This document shows, one piece after another, positions 2,594-30,513 of a DNA stretch of 30,513 nucleotides. The stretch comes from a virus: positions 1 to 30,513 of the IMG/VR virus record IMGVR_UViG_3300025617_000004; one strand, given 5' to 3'. The position numbers were made by a program, and so were the translations under genes. Position 1 is the stretch's first letter. Each line of letters opens with the position of its first letter. The notes below the pieces were generated by a model. It saw only the letters and a list, made by a program, of their open reading frames with translations. It ran no database searches and was not told the DNA's origin.

Positions 2594-3547
2594 TTACACC
2601 GCAATCCTGTAACTAACAATAACAACACCGGAACCGCCAGCGCCACCGTTCTGCGTGTTGGTAGTTGTGGGGTTGCCACCCGCTCCACCACCACCGCCAC
2701 CGCGACCATCCGTGCCGTCCTGACCGTCATTCAAGTAAGCACCACCGTTACCGCTTACGCCGGAAGTTCCTAGACCGCCAGACCCACCGTTACCGCGACC
2801 ACCGCCACCACCGGCGGCATAAGTAAGCGAAGTGCCCGTTATAGCAGAAACATAACCAGACCCACCGTTACCCGCGGTTGCACCACCAGATGCATTACCG
2901 CCAGCGCTACCGGCACCACCACCACCACCGGAACCGTCCTGCACGCCACCCGCATACGCCGTACCGTCACCACCGGCGTTTCCAAGCCCGCCACTAGCAG
3001 ACCCAGGTTGCAGACCACTAGCGCCGGAATAGTATGCTGGGTCGCTCGTGTCGGAAGCCCCGCCACCGGAACCTCCGGCTAACGGACGCCTATTCCCCGC
3101 TTGCGTCGTGCTGTTCCAAGAGGCACCTGCACCGCCACCCAAAGCCGTCAGCCCAAACAGCGACGAATCATCACCCACCGTAGACCGCACACCCGAATCG
3201 CTACTGCCGGTACCGATACCGCCGACACCACCCGCACCCACAACCGCCGAATAACCCTGAACAGTAACCGCCGTACTGCCGTGAACAACACCACCCGCAC
3301 CACCACCCGCACCCGTTGTCGTGTTGCTGAAGCTACCGCCACCGCCACCGCCACCAGCAACAATCAAGTAATCCACAGTTTCCCCGTCAGGGGCACTCGT
3401 CACAGTGAACGTGCCGTCAGAAGTGAACTCGTGAACTTTGTAAGTAACGCCTGCATCCGTATAGGTGGACACAGTGCCACCCGTCGCCTCAATAAATTGT
3501 TGGGCGACAGAATTCAGAATCCCCCTACGCCGTAGGAAAGCGCTCAC
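2594..3547 (-). CDS. Glycine-rich tail fibre/adhesin-like protein
   Basis: A 317-residue protein if the GTG at 3545-3547 is used; this overlaps the upstream TGA as GTGA, a coupling pattern seen throughout this genome. An upstream GTG at 3571 would add eight residues. The N-terminal 60 residues contain QQFIEATGGTVSTYTDAGVTYKVHEF and the bridge FTVTSAPDGETVDYLIVAGGGGGGG, which is the usual entry into phage glycine-rich domains. About 220 residues of Gly/Ser/Ala/Asn follow, ending GGSGVVIVSYRIAV. The ending GGSG(I/V)VIVS is shared with the glycine-rich protein at the circular join, so the two are related. Likely receptor-binding tip component. Confidence 0.78.
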   Translation of the reverse strand: MSAFLRRRGILNSVAQQFIEATGGTVSTYTDAGVTYKVHEFTSDGTFTVTSAPDGETVDYLIVAGGGGGGGSFSNTTTGAGGGAGGVVHGSTAVTVQGYSAVVGAGGVGGIGTGSSDSGVRSTVGDDSSLFGLTALGGGAGASWNSTTQAGNRRPLAGGSGGGASDTSDPAYYSGASGLQPGSASGGLGNAGGDGTAYAGGVQDGSGGGGGAGSAGGNASGGATAGNGGSGYVSAITGTSLTYAAGGGGGRGNGGSGGLGTSGVSGNGGAYLNDGQDGTDGRGGGGGGAGGNPTTTNTQNGGAGGSGVVIVSYRIAV

Positions 3548-4047
3548 GATACAGACCCAGCGAGAACCCACTCATCCGTGGCGCGTTTGCGAAGTGACAC
3601 CTCACCATACTGCGCTAAGTCGCCAGCGTTACGAAGCGTCACGCCCGTATCGCCAGTAATCGTCAAGTCGGAAGCGTTAGCATTGTAGACGTTCACGACT
3701 GTGCCTATTGGGAAAGCAGCGGAAGCATCGTCGGGGACTGTAATCGTGCCGGCGCTGATGTTCGCTAAGACAACCTTGTAAGCATCTGCAAGCGCAAGTG
3801 TGTATGAGCTAGTTCGTTGAGTAGTTTCAGTCATCAAGCGATTAGCGACAACATCTGCCTGCAAGGTCGTGATGTCTGACTGTGCCGTTGTAACATCAGA
3901 CTGAAGCGTTGTAATGTCTGATTCGGCGGAAGTAATGTCAGACTGTGCCGTTTCAATATCTGTAGCCGTAGCGTTCCAGATAGCAGGGAACGTGCGCGGG
4001 TCAGCCCCATCTGCTGGTGTCAAACCGCCTGAAAGTCTAGTAACCAT
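3544..4047 (-). CDS. Tail fibre protein with N-terminal heptad coiled coil
   Basis: A 167-residue protein starting MVTRLSGGLTPADGADPRTFP. Residues about 32-66 are five near-perfect seven-residue repeats (TAQSDIT, SAESDIT, TLQSDVT, TAQSDIT, TLQADVV), typical of a short trimeric coiled-coil fibre shaft. The C-terminal half (TLALADAYKVVLANISAGTITVP, then GTVVNVYNANASDLTITGD) is a small beta-rich domain common in phage tail fibres. It lies directly downstream of the tape measure gene and upstream of the glycine-rich adhesin. It probably links the tail tip to the adhesin. The repeats are seen directly; the fibre role is inferred. Confidence 0.74.
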   Translation of the reverse strand: MVTRLSGGLTPADGADPRTFPAIWNATATDIETAQSDITSAESDITTLQSDVTTAQSDITTLQADVVANRLMTETTQRTSSYTLALADAYKVVLANISAGTITVPDDASAAFPIGTVVNVYNANASDLTITGDTGVTLRNAGDLAQYGEVSLRKRATDEWVLAGSVS

Positions 4048-8735: not shown

Positions 8736-9404
8736 TTACCGCAGCCACTCGTTCCGTCTACGCCGAGTCAAAGACCAATATCCCGCGCTGTAATCGTTGC
8801 TTCGGATCTTCGCGTTGTGATATTCGAGATTGTCGCTATACACACGGTCAGCAATATTCTTAGTCGCTTCTGTCACACGGGTCGCCACGGACATATCGTA
8901 GGTTGCTCCCACCTCAATATGTTTCACGTGAAACCCGTTGTGTCTTGTACGGCGCAGATAGTCTTGATCCTCATGGTGTGTCGGAAAGAACGACTCGTCA
9001 AAAAGTCCGACGTGTCTAAGCACTTCCTCGCCTACACAGAACAGTTGGAAGAATGGTTCGGCATCAGAAAGTGTAAGCTCGTTTGTTTGTGCCTTAGACA
9101 TTTTCTCTAGATCCCCAGGCGCGAGGATTAGGTCACTTGATACGAAGAACCATCTGTCGTTATGTGGCAGGCATTTGATGCCGAGGTTCCACGACCCTGC
9201 CAACCCTAGATTTGCTGGCAGCGGAATGTAGTGAACGTTCTGAACCTTGTCGGGGAACTGTAGCGAGGTGACACCTGCACCGTTGTCTATAATGACGAGG
9301 TGCGATACTTTCATATCTATTGTGTCTAACAAGCGCTGTAGTAGATCGTAACGCCCGAACACGGGCACGATGAGGTTAGGGATCACCAGACAATCGTATT
9401 GCAC
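8736..9404 (-). CDS. GT2-like (GT-A fold) glycosyltransferase
   Basis: A 222-residue protein. Residues 10-30 (NLIVPVFGRYDLLQRLLDTID), IIDNG at 38-42, NLGLAGSWNLGI at 65-76 and the acidic FVSSD at 87-91 follow the GT2 nucleotide-sugar binding layout; SSD replaces the usual DXD. A later FDESFFPTHHEDQDYLRR resembles the GT2 ED acid-base region. The GTG start has no ribosome site, but a -10-like TAAATA sits seven bases upstream, so the mRNA may be leaderless. Lying between capsid and connector genes, it may glycosylate a virion protein; the acceptor is unknown. Confidence 0.82.
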   Translation of the reverse strand: MQYDCLVIPNLIVPVFGRYDLLQRLLDTIDMKVSHLVIIDNGAGVTSLQFPDKVQNVHYIPLPANLGLAGSWNLGIKCLPHNDRWFFVSSDLILAPGDLEKMSKAQTNELTLSDAEPFFQLFCVGEEVLRHVGLFDESFFPTHHEDQDYLRRTRHNGFHVKHIEVGATYDMSVATRVTEATKNIADRVYSDNLEYHNAKIRSNDYSAGYWSLTRRRRNEWLR

Positions 9405-11308: not shown

Positions 11309-11476
11309 GTGAAGATTTCAAAGTTCAACCTACTCAAGGGGACACTCAACGAACTGAACCTCAAGATCGCTACCCTTCAGGAACTGGAAGCGGATAGGGC
11401 AGATATAGACGAGCTAGTCCGCGAGCGCACCAAGATCCAGTGGGCAATCGCAGACGAGATCAGCAAGAACAGCTAG
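11309..11476 (+). CDS. Small coiled-coil protein of unknown function (cassette B)
   Basis: A 55-residue protein. I use the GTG at 11309-11311 because a CGGAGAAACCA leader precedes it and longer readings enter the previous gene. Sequence MKISKFNLLKGTLNELNLKIATL then LEADRADIDELVRERTKIQW shows clear Leu/Ile heptads, so a coiled coil is likely. It could pair with the equally small protein before it. No known family recognised. Confidence 0.72.
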   Translation: MKISKFNLLKGTLNELNLKIATLQELEADRADIDELVRERTKIQWAIADEISKNS

Positions 11477-11490
11477 AAACGGAGAACACG

Positions 11491-11916
11491 ATGCAAACAT
11501 TTCTACCAGACCACAGCTACTTCGTCAGCGCTAGGATCCTAGACCGACAAAGACTAGGGAAGCAACGAGTCGAGGCGTACCAGATCCTACGGGCGCTCCG
11601 TGGCGAAAGCAAGGGTTGGGTCAATCACCCAGCCACCAGGATGTGGCGAGGCTACGAGAATAGTCTTATCCTCTACACACAAGTTATGTGCGACGAGTGG
11701 ACAAGCCGTGGATACAAGGACAGCATCAAAGACAAGGTCGAAGCTATGCTTCCTGATTACCCCTACTACTATGCCCCCCCGTGGCTAACCTACGACCTCA
11801 TCAGAACACACCAATCTAACCTAGTAAGGAAAGACCCCACCTATTATCAACCTATGTTCCCAGGCGTGCCAGACGATCTCGCATACCTGTGGCCAGTAAC
11901 GGAGGACAACCGATGA
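11491..11916 (+). CDS. Pyrimidine dimer DNA glycosylase (MSMEG_6572-like, endonuclease V family)
   Basis: A 141-residue protein with ATG at 11491 after CGGAGAACACG. The start MQTFLPDHSYFVSARILDRQRLGKQRVEAYQILRAL and the motif WVNHPATRMWRGYENSLILYTQVMCDEWTSRGYKD closely follow the actinobacterial MSMEG_6572-type family related to phage T4 endonuclease V (DenV). Such enzymes cut the glycosyl bond at UV-made pyrimidine dimers and nick the abasic site. Length fits. In a 30-kb genome it points to life in sunlit water. It lies in cassette B with early-type control, consistent with prompt repair of incoming DNA. Confidence 0.86.
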   Translation: MQTFLPDHSYFVSARILDRQRLGKQRVEAYQILRALRGESKGWVNHPATRMWRGYENSLILYTQVMCDEWTSRGYKDSIKDKVEAMLPDYPYYYAPPWLTYDLIRTHQSNLVRKDPTYYQPMFPGVPDDLAYLWPVTEDNR

Positions 11917-15453: not shown

Positions 15454-16962
15454 CTATCCAAAGAACTGCGGAACCACTTCTTCCATTCTAGCGACTGTTG
15501 CCCGGTCTACGGCGAGAATTGCTGCAACAGCTGCGTCAATCTTCCGTGGACTACCCTTTTTGTCTTTCACGATACGAGGTCCAAGATTATCCACCTTTGT
15601 GACGGCGTTATCCAAGTGACGGGCAAGCACGGGATCCCCATCGTGAACGATGCGATTTTCGACAACTAGGTCATAAAAGTTGGCGCACGCTGGCACCATT
15701 CTTCGCGGTGACGTGGATGGCCATTCGACAATAGGTAGCCCTGCTTGTTCTAGGATCTCCATTGATCTTTGCCACCGGAACGGGTCACACGCTATTTCAC
15801 GGACTTTCGGATATTTTTGACAGAACTGGATAATGGTCTGCTCGACATCACCAATATCTACGCGCCAATCCTGGTCGTGTATAGCAACGTCCTTCTCCCA
15901 AGCTTTGACCATAAACACTTTCACATTTTCTTCGTCAGTCTTAGGAATGATTGCGCCGACTACAACCGTGGCATCTCCCGAGAACGACCCATCAAACCCG
16001 AGCACGATCTCATCGTCAGGGTCAGGAACAACCTCACCCGCACACTGTTCCCACGAACCGTCAGGCAACCAAGTGTTTTGTGACGAAACAAACAGGTTCA
16101 ACCGTTTCGTTTTGAACTCCGCTTCAGGTGTCCTACGGATAGCAGACCTAAAGTCCTCGGCATCGTTGATGTCACCGTACCCTGGGTTTGCGGTTTCCCA
16201 AGTTGCCTCGTCACGGTAATCGCCCTCTGACTCCCACCAAGCCTGAAAGAATGTGCTGTCATCTTCCTCGCCTCGCGCAATTTTTTGACCGTACTGGTAA
16301 AGCGTGTACGCAATAGAGTCCCGACCCGTCGAGTCAGAGCGAACACCCGCCGTTGTAATCGCTAACAGGGTTGCCTTGTTACCACGAGCACCCATAGCCA
16401 AAGACATAACATCGAACAAGTCACGGTTAGGTTGCGCGTGTAACTCGTCGAAGATCACGAAGGTCGGGTTCAGTCCCTCTTTGGAATATGCTTCTGCTGA
16501 CAGGGCGCGATACACAGAACCGTTCTCCGTGTTTTCCATAGCATCACGGTACAAGTTGATGTGTCCTAGATCCGGTGCAGCCTCAACCATCTTGCGGGCA
16601 TCACGGAACACAATCTTTGCCTGTTCCTTTTCCGCTGCAATCGAATACACCTCACCACCGCCAGGACCAAGCGCTAAGGAATACAGGGCTGTAATAGATC
16701 CCAGCGCAGACTTGCCATTCTTTCGTGGCATACCGACTAACTGTATCCGGTGGCGTAGCCCACCATTCTCCCAAGCGAAGATCCTTAGCAGTAGTTGTTT
16801 CTGCCAGTCACGGAGCACTAACGGTTCGCCCACGTTACCCGCAACGCTGTCCTTTGTGATTGTGCCGTATCGTTCCGCAAAACCAATAGCGATGTGTCCT
16901 TCGCCTGCCAGTAGTGCTTCCTCCGGTACAGGTGTCATCCAGCGCGGAGGCCAACTACTCAT
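15454..16962 (-). CDS. Terminase large subunit
   Basis: A 502-residue protein using ATG 16960-16962, with AGGTGG five bases upstream; it overlaps the small subunit gene by eight bases. The ATPase has Walker A GMPRKNGKS (about 77-85) and Walker B FVIFDELH (about 168-175). The C-terminal nuclease shows GFDGSFSGDATVV, then ACDPFRWQ and KIDAAVAAILAVDRA, the three acidic sites of the RNase H-like fold. It pumps DNA into the prohead and cuts the concatemer. P27-type partner and a nearby HNH protein suggest a cos-like system, but I could not find the cut site. Confidence 0.96.
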   Translation of the reverse strand: MSSWPPRWMTPVPEEALLAGEGHIAIGFAERYGTITKDSVAGNVGEPLVLRDWQKQLLLRIFAWENGGLRHRIQLVGMPRKNGKSALGSITALYSLALGPGGGEVYSIAAEKEQAKIVFRDARKMVEAAPDLGHINLYRDAMENTENGSVYRALSAEAYSKEGLNPTFVIFDELHAQPNRDLFDVMSLAMGARGNKATLLAITTAGVRSDSTGRDSIAYTLYQYGQKIARGEEDDSTFFQAWWESEGDYRDEATWETANPGYGDINDAEDFRSAIRRTPEAEFKTKRLNLFVSSQNTWLPDGSWEQCAGEVVPDPDDEIVLGFDGSFSGDATVVVGAIIPKTDEENVKVFMVKAWEKDVAIHDQDWRVDIGDVEQTIIQFCQKYPKVREIACDPFRWQRSMEILEQAGLPIVEWPSTSPRRMVPACANFYDLVVENRIVHDGDPVLARHLDNAVTKVDNLGPRIVKDKKGSPRKIDAAVAAILAVDRATVARMEEVVPQFFG

Positions 16963-17425
16963 CCCCGCCACCTCGCACGAGATCGTCTTTCATCTGTTGT
17001 AGCTCGACCAATCTAGATCTCCGAGCAACCTCGGCTAGACCAAGCCTTGACCTGTCCGATGGCGAGAACCCAAGCAAAGACAGGTTAGCTGCAATAATCC
17101 GTGACAGGTTGTCAAGCCTACGAGCCATCTGCATATTGTCTGTTTGCATCACTTTGATCCGCAAGTTCCAGCGCTCATCCACCATCTCGCAAGTCATAAG
17201 CAACAGCTCGATATCGGAAACAGGGCTGATCCAACCGATACCTGCTCCCCAGACTCGTTCCCAAAGCTTCTTGCCAGGCTCTAGCAGGGGTCGTGGTGGC
17301 TCAGGGATACTGTCGGCAGGTTCTAGTACCTCTAACTCGTTCTGATCCGGCAGAGGGCGTCTACCAGGATTGCCTAGTTTCCGTTTCTGCTCAATCGGTT
17401 TAGCGGGTCTACCGCGCCCACTCAT
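16955..17425 (-). CDS. Terminase small subunit (P27 family)
   Basis: A 156-residue protein opening MSGRGRPAKPIEQKRKLGNPGRRPLP, the basic P27-family signature. Then come PEPPRPLLEPGKKLWERVW and a helical region (DIELLLMTCEMVDERWNLRIKV, LDNLSRIIAANLSLLGFSPSDRSRLGLAEV). The last motif is typical of actinobacterial P27 members. It recognises the packaging start site and loads the large subunit. Its ATG overlaps the TAGT gene stop as ATGA. Confidence 0.93.
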   Translation of the reverse strand: MSGRGRPAKPIEQKRKLGNPGRRPLPDQNELEVLEPADSIPEPPRPLLEPGKKLWERVWGAGIGWISPVSDIELLLMTCEMVDERWNLRIKVMQTDNMQMARRLDNLSRIIAANLSLLGFSPSDRSRLGLAEVARRSRLVELQQMKDDLVRGGGDE

Positions 17426-18321
17426 TTGTCTAACCGCTTCCAGACACTTTCCTTGACAGGTTCCCGCGCAAGCTTGACTTTCGAGAAGTCCTGCGGAACA
17501 TAGTTCTTGTCCTTCACCAGCCCGTGTGTAAACCGCGAGTAATCAACTGTGTGATGCCACCGACTAAACTTGTACGACAGCTTCGCTACGTCAGGGTGCA
17601 TATCCACAAGCATCTTCGATTTAGGTAGAGTGCCCTCGCCTGCATAGAACGCCTCCGTGTTACCGCCCGTCATTTTCTGTGTAGGCATTTTGTATTGGTA
17701 GAACGCATTGAACTGGATTGTTACCCAGCCAGCTTTCATCATTACCAGCGACAAATCGGTGTCCTCGTTATACCGACCTCGCCACCGGAATGGCACGTCA
17801 TTACGGATTAGGTTGCAGGAATAGATCCTCGTGTTTGTAATGAACGGAGGTCGAGCGTTACGGGATGGCAGAAACATAAAGTAGTTGGGACCAGACATCG
17901 AAACATTCTTGTACCGTTGCGAGAAGTCTTCCATCGCGCGGAAACCAAACCCGTCACCTATGAGCAACCGCTGGTTCTTGTGCAACCTACCGAAGTTGAT
18001 AATGTTGTCATCCATTACCCAGTGCCACTTGTGACCTTCGGCAATCGAGTGCTCCCAGGCAAAGTTACGGGCAGCCCCTGGCCCTTTCGATTTCGTGTCG
18101 CCTAGATCATCAAATGTTTCGTAGTTGTCTAGGTACTCTTGTGGCAACACCAACAGTTTCGACTTATCAAAGTATTGGTTGTAATCGTCGTACTGGTCAG
18201 CCTCAACAACGATCCGGTACGGAACATTGATTATGTCTAGATACCGTGGCGTGAAAGCGGACTTTGCTCGTGACTTCGACGGTATGTATATCGGGAACTC
18301 AGGCTGTGTTATCAACGACAT
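17422..18321 (-). CDS. TET-associated glycosyltransferase (TAGT) domain protein
   Basis: A 299-residue protein starting ATG 18319-18321 (MSLITQPEFPIYIPSKSR). Signature pieces are IYIPSKSRAKS at 11-21, VPYRIVVE at 33-40, GPGAARNFAWEHSI at 80-93 and WVMDDNI at 101-107 (acidic metal site). FRWRGRYNEDTDLSL at 178-192 and MTGGNT at 217-222 complete the set. These are characteristic of TAGT, a family proposed to glycosylate oxidised methylcytosine in phage DNA. It overlaps the ParB-like gene and touches the terminase gene, so modification and packaging are co-expressed. No TET/JBP dioxygenase or base hydroxymethylase is visible in this genome, so the real acceptor is open. Confidence 0.9.
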   Translation of the reverse strand: MSLITQPEFPIYIPSKSRAKSAFTPRYLDIINVPYRIVVEADQYDDYNQYFDKSKLLVLPQEYLDNYETFDDLGDTKSKGPGAARNFAWEHSIAEGHKWHWVMDDNIINFGRLHKNQRLLIGDGFGFRAMEDFSQRYKNVSMSGPNYFMFLPSRNARPPFITNTRIYSCNLIRNDVPFRWRGRYNEDTDLSLVMMKAGWVTIQFNAFYQYKMPTQKMTGGNTEAFYAGEGTLPKSKMLVDMHPDVAKLSYKFSRWHHTVDYSRFTHGLVKDKNYVPQDFSKVKLAREPVKESVWKRLDK

Positions 18322-18940
18322 AGTGTTCGTGTTGCGTAGATCCCACAAGACCGTCAGACTCTGGCCACCAAAACGATTTCTTCGCGCTGATCTCAAGTAG
18401 CTCAAAGAACTTGTTTTTCGCATCCTCGTCCACGAAGTGAACTGTGCAACTAAACGCCGAGGTAGCATCGTTCTGCTCATACTCAGGCATCCCCGTCCAC
18501 TCGGCAAGCGCGTCTACCGTCTTACCTGAGCTTGTGCCATCCATCGTCGCAATCTTGCTGATCTCCGCTTCCGAGAAACCAAGCGCATCGAACTCGAACT
18601 CTGCAATCTCAAGCGAGGCGAGCTGTGCCTGCAAAACCGTAGGATCAAACTCAGAGAGATCCGCCGACCTGTTATCCGCAATCGCGTAGGCACGCACCAT
18701 TTCCTTAGACCAGTCCGCAGGTGCCTTCACCACAGCTACCTTGTCCCAGCCAAGCTCTGTCGCAGCAAGCAAGGTACCGTTACCCGCAATCACCGTCTTG
18801 TCCGCGGTAATCACAATCGGTTTGCGCTGACCAAATTTCTCTAAGCTCGCACGCAACACAGCTCGGTTCTCCGGCGGGTGGATCCTCGCGTTCTCATCAT
18901 CGAACCTGAGATCCGAAACTGACAGCATCTCTATTTTCAC
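18299..18940 (-). CDS. ParB-like nuclease/sulfiredoxin-fold domain protein
   Basis: A 213-residue protein with GTG 18938-18940, placed five bases after a strong AGGAGG. The ParB-N core is LSVSDLRFDDENARIHP, FGQRKPIVI (36-44) and VIAGNGTLLAATELGW (50-65), with GNG where partition ParB has GxxR, so true plasmid partition is unlikely. KEMVRAYAIADNRS (79-92) is the usual next helix in phage forms. The C-terminal part (EWTGMPEYEQ, then CTVHFVDEDAKNKFFELLEI) looks like a separate small domain. Paired with TAGT; may direct or prepare the modification. It could bind CTP or ATP like relatives. Confidence 0.86.
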   Translation of the reverse strand: MKIEMLSVSDLRFDDENARIHPPENRAVLRASLEKFGQRKPIVITADKTVIAGNGTLLAATELGWDKVAVVKAPADWSKEMVRAYAIADNRSADLSEFDPTVLQAQLASLEIAEFEFDALGFSEAEISKIATMDGTSSGKTVDALAEWTGMPEYEQNDATSAFSCTVHFVDEDAKNKFFELLEISAKKSFWWPESDGLVGSTQHEHYVVDNTA

Positions 18941-19141: not shown

Positions 19142-19480
19142 CTAGATGTTGGGGTGTTTCCCGCCTTTGCGTAGATTGCACGACCTGTGGGCGGGGAGTA
19201 ACGGCGATTCGGGGTTGCCAGGATACAGGTGATCTGCTTGCCACGGATCCCCTGGTCTAGCTCCCCCACCACATAGGTGGCAGTGTGTAGCGTTAGCTCG
19301 AACTATTGCAGCCCGTTTACGGTAGTCAGAGTTGTATAGTGCCCGCTTCTTAGCAGCCCTCTGTGGTGATCCGGGTTTGCGGTATCTTTTGTTTGCTTCG
19401 GTCTGATGGGTCGGACATCTGTAACCTCGTGAGAGTACGCCACAGTCGAGGCAGGGTTTCATAAAGCTACTAGGGGACAT
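19142..19480 (-). CDS. HNH endonuclease
   Basis: A 112-residue protein using ATG 19478-19480, which overlaps the upstream TAA as TAATG. Two zinc-type Cys pairs are visible (CLDC at 10-13, CHLC at 67-70). The HNH core is DPWQADHLYPGN with His84 and LLPAHRSCNLRKGGK at 95-107, the standard beta-beta-alpha metal layout. Phage HNH proteins next to terminase genes often help cut DNA during packaging; a free-standing homing nuclease is the other option. Location directly upstream of the non-coding region and the terminase operon favours the packaging role. Confidence 0.88.
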   Translation of the reverse strand: MSPSSFMKPCLDCGVLSRGYRCPTHQTEANKRYRKPGSPQRAAKKRALYNSDYRKRAAIVRANATHCHLCGGGARPGDPWQADHLYPGNPESPLLPAHRSCNLRKGGKHPNI

Positions 19481-20439
19481 TATTGTTTGTGTAGCTCGGG
19501 CAGGATTGTCCGCCACCTATCCCCCACAATTCTTTGCGCGAGGATCCCTAACAGGCTGTTTCGTGGGATCTCATACCAGAATGTGGCTGGGTTCAGGTCT
19601 TGTGTTACGCCCTGGAAAGCTGACTCAAAGAAATGTTGCACGATGAACGACTGTTCGAGGATCTCGGTAATGCTTGGAAGCGGGTAACCGAATACAGTAT
19701 TGGTTCCGTCTAACCTTGTTGGTTGTTCTACCGAGTAGCATTTGCCTGCTCCCATCCACGACGGTACAGGGCAGGTCTTGATAGGTGGAAAGATCTTTGC
19801 GTCAGGGTAGTTGCGGGACAGTTCTTTGATAGTCCATAGGACGTAGTTCCAGGCTTTGCTATCTCGCTTTGGTGCGATGGATAGGGTTTGTTCGATCTTG
19901 TCGGATAGCGCCAGGATTGGTTCCGCTAGGTCTTGGTCTACCTTGACCGGGAAAGCGGAGAGTGCCTTGCCATCCCAGCTACCGTCGTGGACTGTGAACG
20001 GCGGGTGTGCGGTTCCCCACTGTGGCGCGACACCTCCGGTTGCTTTGGCAGGCATAGTGCAAAAATACTTGGTTAGTGCTGGTAACTCGTTGATGACAAT
20101 GGCATCCATATCGAGTACGAGTCCCCCGTCAATAGCTGATGCTCGGAACCGAACAAGGTCAGATATGTGGGCAATACTGTGTCCCTGGTTTAGCGCTGAC
20201 CAGGCAGACTCGGCGGGGAATAGTTCACCAGCATCGTAGACTGTGACCTGTTCTGGGATCCCCTGACTGATTGTCTGATAGGTGTATAGGTGTACCTCGT
20301 GCCCACGGTTTAGGTGAGCTTGTAACGATAGGGAATGTGACGGGTTTAGCCGGATATCCGTGGTACGCCAGTCCTCAAGGTTTTCGTGTTGTCCCCGACT
20401 GTATTTTGACCAGAACAGCAGGATCCTGTCCCCGCGCAT
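19480..20439 (-). CDS. GT32-like (Och1/DXD sugar-binding) glycosyltransferase
   Basis: A 319-residue protein, start overlapping the upstream TAA (TAATG). Residues 90-112 read AHISDLVRFRASAIDGGLVLDMD: the S-D-x-x-R-x3 helix followed by G-G and the DMD metal motif are the hallmark of the Gly_transf_sug/GT32 family. The region IPEQVTVYDAGELFP and a later VQHFFESAF are typical of phage versions. It transfers a sugar from a nucleotide donor; the target is unknown. This is the third glycosyltransferase in the genome, placed with replication genes, unlike the GT2-like gene near capsid. Confidence 0.87.
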   Translation of the reverse strand: MRGDRILLFWSKYSRGQHENLEDWRTTDIRLNPSHSLSLQAHLNRGHEVHLYTYQTISQGIPEQVTVYDAGELFPAESAWSALNQGHSIAHISDLVRFRASAIDGGLVLDMDAIVINELPALTKYFCTMPAKATGGVAPQWGTAHPPFTVHDGSWDGKALSAFPVKVDQDLAEPILALSDKIEQTLSIAPKRDSKAWNYVLWTIKELSRNYPDAKIFPPIKTCPVPSWMGAGKCYSVEQPTRLDGTNTVFGYPLPSITEILEQSFIVQHFFESAFQGVTQDLNPATFWYEIPRNSLLGILAQRIVGDRWRTILPELHKQ

Positions 20440-29785: not shown

Positions 29786-30188
29786 CCGGCACCACTACCC
29801 ACTCACCGGCATCCTCATCCCAATGATACATCACTGTGTCAGCATCATCCGGCAAAGCAACTGGCGCTACATATAGGCAAGTGTCCTCATCGAGAACCCA
29901 CGACTCAAAAGGCTTAGGGGGGATGAAAGCATCCCTGCCCTCATCGTATGTGTAGCCGATACCCGCATAGTTGAACCGGAACGCTTTGGTTTGGTCATCG
30001 CTAGGCTCACCATCCGTGTAGTGAACCCCGCCGAGCGTGTTATATGAAGTGCGAAGGCAAGTCTGTTCACGGAAGTCCCCGTAGTGTGTTTCCCAATCGG
30101 TAACACCCTCAACTAGGTCATCCTCGTCTTTACCGACAATGACCTCAGTCACAATGTTGTTGTCGTCAATGAAAGCGTAGTGTGCCAT
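29772..30188 (-). CDS. Tail/virion-associated protein of common environmental phage family
   Basis: A 138-residue acidic protein, MAHYAFIDDNNIVTEVIVGKDEDD, DWETHYGDFREQTCLRTSYNTLGGVHY, FRFNYAGIGYTYDEGRDAFIPPKPFESWVLDEDTCLYVAPVALPDD. The opening (AxIDxxNIVTxVIV), then the C..TSYNT..G.H and GYTYD...DAFIPPKPF.SW..D motif, recurs beside tail fibre genes of very many marine phages. It lies between the glycine-rich adhesin and endolysin genes. Function unknown, probably structural or fibre assembly. Confidence 0.78.
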   Translation of the reverse strand: MAHYAFIDDNNIVTEVIVGKDEDDLVEGVTDWETHYGDFREQTCLRTSYNTLGGVHYTDGEPSDDQTKAFRFNYAGIGYTYDEGRDAFIPPKPFESWVLDEDTCLYVAPVALPDDADTVMYHWDEDAGEWVVVPDEAE

Positions 30189-30513
30189 TAGTTCACCGTC
30201 ACCGTCCCTGTTCCGCTCGTGAAAGAATAGACCCTGTTGTTTCCGTTGAGTGTTTGGCTCGAAGTCAAGCCTGCGCCAACTGTTAGGGTTCGGTCAGCGG
30301 GGATGCTAACAATGACAATGCCAGAACCACCTGCACCGCCGGAAGCGTACTGGTTGGCGGAACCGCCACCCCCGCCCCCGCGATTAGCCGGTGCGGAATT
30401 GCCGGTGCTTCCGCCAGCTCCCGCGCCAGTACCACCCGAACCCGAACCGCTAGTTCCCGAACCGCCACCACCGCCACCGCGACCTACCGATGAACCTGTT
30501 ACTGACGATGCTA
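30188..30513 (-). CDS. Glycine-rich tail fibre/adhesin-like protein, C-terminal part
   Basis: Open from the window end on the - strand to TAA at 30188-30190, which overlaps the next ATG (TAATG). It ends the glycine-rich gene begun at 701: glycine-rich until YASGGAGGSGIVIVSIPADRTLTVGAG, then a 30-residue beta-rich finish NNRVYSFTSGTGTVTVN. Bases 30387-30513 only repeat the start of the window. The GGSGIVIVS join matches that of the 317-residue adhesin. Confidence 0.85.
   Translation of the reverse strand, partial: ASSVTGSSVGRGGGGGGSGTSGSGSGGTGAGAGGSTGNSAPANRGGGGGGSANQYASGGAGGSGIVIVSIPADRTLTVGAGLTSSQTLNGNNRVYSFTSGTGTVTVN
30387..30513. repeat. Right copy of 127-bp terminal direct repeat
   Basis: Exact copy of bases 1-127. 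Trimming one copy gives a 30,386-bp circle in which the glycine-rich frame is continuous (701 + 199 = 900 bases, 299 codons and stop). Confidence 0.93.

Follow-up and report, generated by a model that had tools for sequence, protein, structure and literature searches.

A TAGT glycosyltransferase and its constant partner domain in phages without a phage-encoded base oxidase

TAGT glycosyltransferases without a phage-encoded base oxidase recur in unrelated phages, and comparison of their loci indicates that TAGT is inseparable from a small domain that we call X, the ParB-like N-terminal domain (ParB-N) that often precedes X being optional. The window analysed here, from a small virus of marine bacteria, is a 30,513-nucleotide stretch making up IMG/VR virus record IMGVR_UViG_3300025617_000004; an exact 127-bp repeat at its ends confirms that it is a complete genome, of 30.4 kb, as a prior sequence-only reading of it had stated. 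Its TAGT gene (17422-18321, reverse strand) lies between genes on the same strand for a ParB-like protein ending in X, ParB-X (18299-18940), and for the terminase small subunit, TerS (16955-17425; phrog_83, with a PF25673 match below that family's cut-off), which is followed by the large subunit, TerL (15454-16971, reverse strand; TerL_ATPase and TerL_nuclease). The likely TAGT start codon is the ATG at 18321, which falls within the last codons of the ParB-like gene, and the TAGT stop codon shares an ATGA with the start codon of TerS, so that ParB-like gene, TAGT, TerS and TerL form one tight gene string.

TAGT and domain X

The identification of TAGT from sequence alone was correct: PF20691 matches 17422-18297 on the reverse strand with 145 bits (E 3e-42) against a cut-off of 27.5 bits, and phrog_842 matches with E 5e-47. 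A DxD-type motif (WVMDDN) and a catalytic-type motif (RGRYNEDTDLSL) are kept across 64-69 relatives, whose alignment has invariant columns D198, D199, N200, N279 and D281 and a near-invariant E280. Searching PDB sequences with TAGT gave no useful match, and for the AlphaFold2 model of a relative the nearest PDB folds are COLGALT1 and other GT-A enzymes. From its motifs and the predicted fold of that relative, the window protein combines a GT-A fold with a DxD-type and an acidic (ED) catalytic motif.

The 213-residue ParB-X matches phrog_620 (E 3e-35) and phrog_498 (E 4e-32, 112 bits), the latter match being confined to ParB-N (residues 1-132; 18545-18940, reverse strand), which is modelled with a ParB/Srx fold (AlphaFold2 and Foldseek) whose closest PDB structures are ParB-CDP complexes. 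All 55 ParB-X proteins tested match phrog_498, a family whose members fuse the same ParB-N to a DNA methyltransferase. The window protein has no methylase family match in Pfam or PHROGs and ends instead in X (residues about 147-210; 18311-18502, reverse strand; EWTGMPEYEQ...TVHF...FFELLE...KKSFWWP). Pfam scans of the window proteins gave no family match to a ParA partner ATPase. Domain X is about 65 residues long, follows the family pattern W..MPEF ... VHF ... F..L.GQ..T.KTKSIWFP, and has no match in Pfam, PHROGs or NCBIfam.

X takes three forms: ParB-X next to TAGT, a lone ORF of 71-90 residues before TAGT, and a fusion to the TAGT N-terminus. An HMM built from the ParB-like C-termini alone recovers the extra N-terminus of about 100 residues that TAGT carries in several phages (best E 1e-23, weakest about 1e-5) as well as the lone ORFs directly before TAGT. 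(A 22-row X alignment was too diverse for use as a search profile, and a mixed alignment, A5, that placed lone X on the TAGT core did so by chance and was left out.) Among 80 TAGT clusters, 44 have ParB-X and TAGT, 24 have X and TAGT, and 7 have the X-TAGT fusion; in the remaining five X had been missed by ORF picking and was present when the locus was inspected. The median distance from the X stop to the TAGT core is 11.5 nt. An independent search with X alone points the same way: among 98 loci, comprising 79 additional ones in IMG/VR, the best of more than 500, and 19 in bacterial genomes, TAGT lies downstream of X in 96, nearly always immediately, and the other two stop at contig ends.

In most IMG/VR loci a ParB-like gene does immediately precede TAGT, in phages that otherwise have unrelated genes, and to this extent the ParB-like partner described earlier is real and recurrent; the constant partner, however, is the C-terminal domain X and not the ParB part. 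ParB-N is absent from about a third of TAGT clusters, and an obligate role for ParB is rejected given that X occurs without ParB-N and also fused to TAGT. The invariant columns of X are aromatic residues, Met-Pro and Lys, with no conserved metal ligands and no nucleophile, on which ground we reject X as an enzyme; its conservation suggests binding rather than catalysis. With ParB-N often absent and X devoid of such residues, the earlier suggestion that the ParB-like protein is a new kind of modification enzyme finds no support. In AlphaFold2 models the X part was not confident and an X-TAGT interface was not seen. ParB-N, on the simplest reading, may be an optional module by which modification enzymes are recruited to DNA.

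Among loci retrieved using the TET and TAGT genes of Nonlabens phage P12024L, nine contained TAGT and none contained X or a same-type ParB, so X and TET look like alternative partners of TAGT. In a phylogenetic tree, X-type TAGTs stand apart from the TET-type and T6 enzymes only by saturated branches, and their branching order is therefore not settled by the tree. Among the relatives and MAG contigs are Bacteroidota, Pseudomonadota, Planctomycetota, Mycoplasmatota and actinobacterial-type phages, and X is found in sequenced type strains, such as Chryseobacterium gambrini DSM 18014 and C. daeguense DSM 19388, and in cultured phages, such as Vibrio phages 1.076.O and 1.124.O. The type-strain genomes of two Chryseobacterium species (L181, L183) are identical over 12,186 bases that include ParB-X, TAGT and a terminase-like gene, reflecting either a recent shared phage or cross-contamination. 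Several loci depart from the usual arrangement. One (L006:692-2425) encodes a 577-residue protein with two tandem TAGT domains, the second just 27% identical to the window TAGT; Vibrio phage Kuja (L086:6209-8921) has two X-TAGT fusions side by side and, a few kb off, a thymidylate-synthase-like gene; in phiAS5 a small ORF right after the fusion (L087:8888-9088) has a weak X match (E 1.5e-5) and is perhaps a second copy; and in Vibrio phage henriette 12B8 (L084:7636-8816) X and TAGT are partly unannotated, lie in separate frames and have no clear TAGT start, perhaps a frameshifted fusion.

Base-preparing enzymes and gene neighbourhood

To our knowledge, the only forms of phage DNA glycosylation that are understood begin with a phage enzyme that puts a hydroxyl on the base. 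Pfam scans of the approximately 50 window proteins found no dioxygenase, methylase or thymidylate-synthase-like protein, and searches of the record with profiles for TET/JBP (PF12851), thymidylate synthase (PF00303) and C5-cytosine methyltransferase (PF00145) were all negative, while the positive controls, TET in P12024L and the dCMP hydroxymethylase gp42 in T6, were both found. We accordingly reject the idea that the window hides a TET, hydroxymethylase or C5-methylase, in agreement with the sequence-only reading, which had seen no such enzyme: by these profile searches the window lacks both the dCMP hydroxymethylase of the T-even pathway and the TET/JBP and C5-methyltransferase of the 5-methylcytosine oxidation-glycosylation pathway.

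That reading had also proposed a survey of TAGT-ParB pairs without TET in other phages. Relatives were gathered as 73 IMG/VR loci plus named phages, and in none of 86 records with the X-type TAGT does TET/JBP (PF12851) score above cut-off. PF00303 occurs in only five X-type phages, all of at least 107 kb; in the thymidylate-synthase-fold genes of phiAS5, henriette and POP12 the visible motif, judged by eye, retains the thymidylate synthase asparagine. PF00145 is found in 6 of the 86. Many of these records are fragments, which makes absence in any single one weak evidence, but two, the window and G040, are complete. G040 (35.8 kb, 127-bp end repeat) encodes TAGT, FkbM, GT34 and other methyltransferases and has no TET, C5-methylase or thymidylate synthase.

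The link between the ParB-like/TAGT pair and the terminase genes, proposed from the window alone, recurs among relatives, with TerL near TAGT in 30 and TerS in 22 of the 80 clusters. Modification before or during packaging, as the sequence-only reading suggested, is a conjecture from gene order. Genes that stand between X and TAGT or overlap the TAGT stop encode mostly sugar enzymes: GT32-like and GT4-like glycosyltransferases, FkbM and other class I methyltransferases (the latter between X and TAGT in L094 and L161), and NAD-dependent sugar epimerases. Methyltransferases and epimerases each appear in just 4-6 of the 80 clusters, and across those clusters no gene family besides X and the terminase genes accompanies TAGT widely enough for an obligate partner. 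The location also varies, X and TAGT lying within the DNA-replication operon in henriette and near rII, as in T6, in POP12.

In the window a GT32-like gene (19480-20439, reverse strand) is probably a second sugar-adding enzyme of the cassette. It has no family match of its own, and its product is 46% identical over 315 residues to a protein (L157:3430-4425, with a weak PF04488 match) that stands between ParB-X and TAGT in its phage, which makes membership very likely. Its counterpart was absent both from the cultured Pontimonas phage phiPsal1 and from 50,697 phage records. The earlier reading had named a single glycosyltransferase; that identification holds, but the genome has at least three, including this gene, which had not been listed, and a GT2-type enzyme (8736-9404) between major capsid and neck genes. 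The latter is rejected as a cassette member because it sits in the capsid/neck module and is shared, at 41% identity, with the TAGT-less phiPsal1; its position and sharing suggest virion glycosylation independent of TAGT.

A natural empty site is offered by phiPsal1, a circular genome of 31.1 kb that is collinear with the window (TerL 61%, major capsid protein 66%, portal 62% identity). It keeps the phosphodiesterase and HNH genes bordering the window's cassette, and it has no ParB-X, TAGT or GT32-like gene by BLAST and no X, TAGT or same-type ParB by HMM. The HNH nuclease (19142-19516, reverse strand; phrog_144) is therefore rejected as a cassette member: its phiPsal1 counterpart (49% identity) is kept beside TerS without ParB-X or TAGT, which assigns it to the packaging module. 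phiPsal1 instead encodes an N6 DNA methylase, phiPsal1_045, to which no window gene corresponds, an exchange that suits a shared DNA-protection role for cassette and methylase in this one comparison. Elsewhere in the window, a protein of the MSMEG_6728 family (Pyr_excise, pyrimidine-dimer DNA glycosylase type; 11440-11916, opposite strand) lies within the structural module and is not in phiPsal1, and two long glycine-rich putative tail proteins are encoded at 1-701, 2594-3571 and 30188-30511, one of them crossing the circular junction of the record.

A candidate DNA-modification cassette and its alternatives

We lean, by no great measure, towards reading the locus as a mobile cassette for sugar modification, built around a two-component glycosyltransferase of TAGT and X that acts on phage DNA, is recruited by ParB-N and has no phage-made acceptor. 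X, supplied by ParB-X in the window and by a lone ORF or fusion elsewhere, would be a subunit on which TAGT depends for specificity or docking. ParB-N would direct the pair to phage DNA, a task that it may also perform for phage DNA methyltransferases, and TAGT would transfer a sugar to that DNA after replication, onto an acceptor that probably pre-exists, either as a canonical base or as a group made by the host. The GT32-like enzyme, or elsewhere epimerases, FkbM-type methyltransferases or other glycosyltransferases, would make or elaborate the sugar, and the product would shield the phage genome against restriction or another defence that senses DNA, replacing the methylase of phiPsal1.

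DNA is the suggested target because the T2/T6 TAGTs modify DNA (PMC13216743, PMC13390438) and every ParB-X tested matches phrog_498, because a ParBc protein accompanies another DNA hypermodification (PMC12783734) and X and TAGT lie in the replication operon or near rII in henriette and POP12, and because the collinear, cassette-less phiPsal1 encodes an N6 DNA methylase missing from the window. Elaboration of the sugar is suggested by the GT32-like, GT4, FkbM and epimerase genes that lie between X and TAGT or overlap them, as well as by FkbM and GT34 in G040. Against this reading, we know of no nucleoside analysis of any cassette-bearing phage, nor of any glycosyltransferase whose substrate is an unmodified DNA base. 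A stricter version, in which X-TAGT glycosylates a canonical base directly (for example at an exocyclic amine) in one ParB-directed step without prior oxidation or hydroxymethylation, is possible but on the whole unlikely; if true, it would be a kind of DNA modification not yet described.

The case for DNA is weakened by the presence of protein glycosyltransferases such as COLGALT1 among the nearest PDB folds, and it is conceivable, though we think it improbable, that the substrate of X-TAGT is a virion or packaging protein (terminase, capsid or portal) and that ParB-N just brings the enzyme to the packaging complex. TerS or TerL adjacency in 22-30 of 80 clusters fits such a target, as does Vibrio phage 1.076.O, where a fused X-TAGT gene between portal and head-morphogenesis genes would suit virion glycosylation and runs against the DNA reading; the accompanying glycosyltransferase and FkbM sets would also fit the building of a surface glycan. 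Yet ParB-N is shared with DNA methyltransferase fusions, X-TAGT lies among replication genes in some large phages, the characterised PF20691 enzymes act on DNA (PMC13216743), and the window already has a separate GT2 in its capsid/neck module, in common with phiPsal1.

If the target is DNA, the missing acceptor could still be made by other means. An ordinary pathway whose first step falls to an unrecognised phage enzyme, which might be among the many window proteins without a family match, has a low probability in our judgement; the class I methyltransferases between X and TAGT in L094 and L161 could be read in its favour, but the profile searches found their positive controls, the window's non-structural proteins of this kind are small, and no family except X (and terminase) recurs widely, methyltransferases and epimerases reaching only 4-6 of 80 clusters. 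We give still less weight to a host-modified base as acceptor, with a cassette functional only in certain hosts. This would account for the missing phage enzyme and for sporadic presence among related phages, phiPsal1 being without the cassette, but the relatives range from Bacteroidota through Pseudomonadota, Planctomycetota and Mycoplasmatota to actinobacterial-type phages, and we know of no hydroxylated base common to these host groups.

The X loci form a widespread class in which a glycosyltransferase and a dedicated partner domain occur with no hydroxyl-making enzyme: either DNA is glycosylated in an undescribed way, or the true target of a family catalogued as DNA-modifying lies elsewhere. 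X-type proteins are often annotated 'beta-glucosyl-HMC-alpha-glucosyltransferase' in phages without a recognisable hydroxymethylcytosine pathway. Domain X is a simple marker for the class, and the type strains and cultured phages that carry it make the question testable now.

Relation to known systems

A TAGT without TET is not in itself unexpected, contrary to the emphasis of the sequence-only reading, being known already from T2/T6 (PMC13216743, PMC13390438), and Aeh1ORF087c has been listed as a glucosyltransferase presumably modifying an unknown DNA base (PMC8056088, citing Iyer et al. 2013). Our literature search on modified bases in Aeh1, phiAS5, PTm1 and Kuja gave no relevant report. What appears to be new, in the sources searched, is domain X, which pairs with TAGT alone and alternates with TET, together with its joined form ParB-X and the presence of a sugar-enzyme cassette in small phages.

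The P12024L TAGT, from a TET/JBP-TAGT-methyltransferase operon, resembles the window enzyme as a phage-encoded PF20691 protein with DDx and ED motifs, but is only 25% identical, is separated from the X class by a very long branch, and has a TET/JBP partner in a class from which X is absent. The T2/T6 TAGT (beta-glucosyl-HMC-alpha-glucosyltransferase) likewise belongs to PF20691 (38 bits for T6) and has no TET. Its substrate is DNA (PMC13216743), where it adds a second glucose to glucosyl-hmC, the hydroxymethylcytosine coming from dCMP hydroxymethylase (PMC13216743, PMC13390438). T6 differs from the window in that its TAGT adjoins that hydroxymethylase, gp42, and in having no X. Two systems resemble the cassette in their ParB part. 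Phage ParB-DNA methyltransferase fusions (phrog_498) share ParB-N with ParB-X, which in place of a methylase domain has X and a separate glycosyltransferase. The CmoX/CmoY cytosine hypermodification of phages is likewise accompanied by a ParBc-domain protein but uses carboxymethyltransferase and ligase chemistry and no glycosyltransferase (PMC12783734). Aeh1ORF087c and its homologues in Aeromonas phages 65, phiAS5 and Ah1, by contrast with the P12024L enzyme, fall in the subfamily of the window TAGT at 52-55% identity; in phiAS5, as in the window, the profile search found no TET, but X is fused to the TAGT N-terminus without ParB-N, the Aeh1 ORF has the same length, and these are large T4-related phages.
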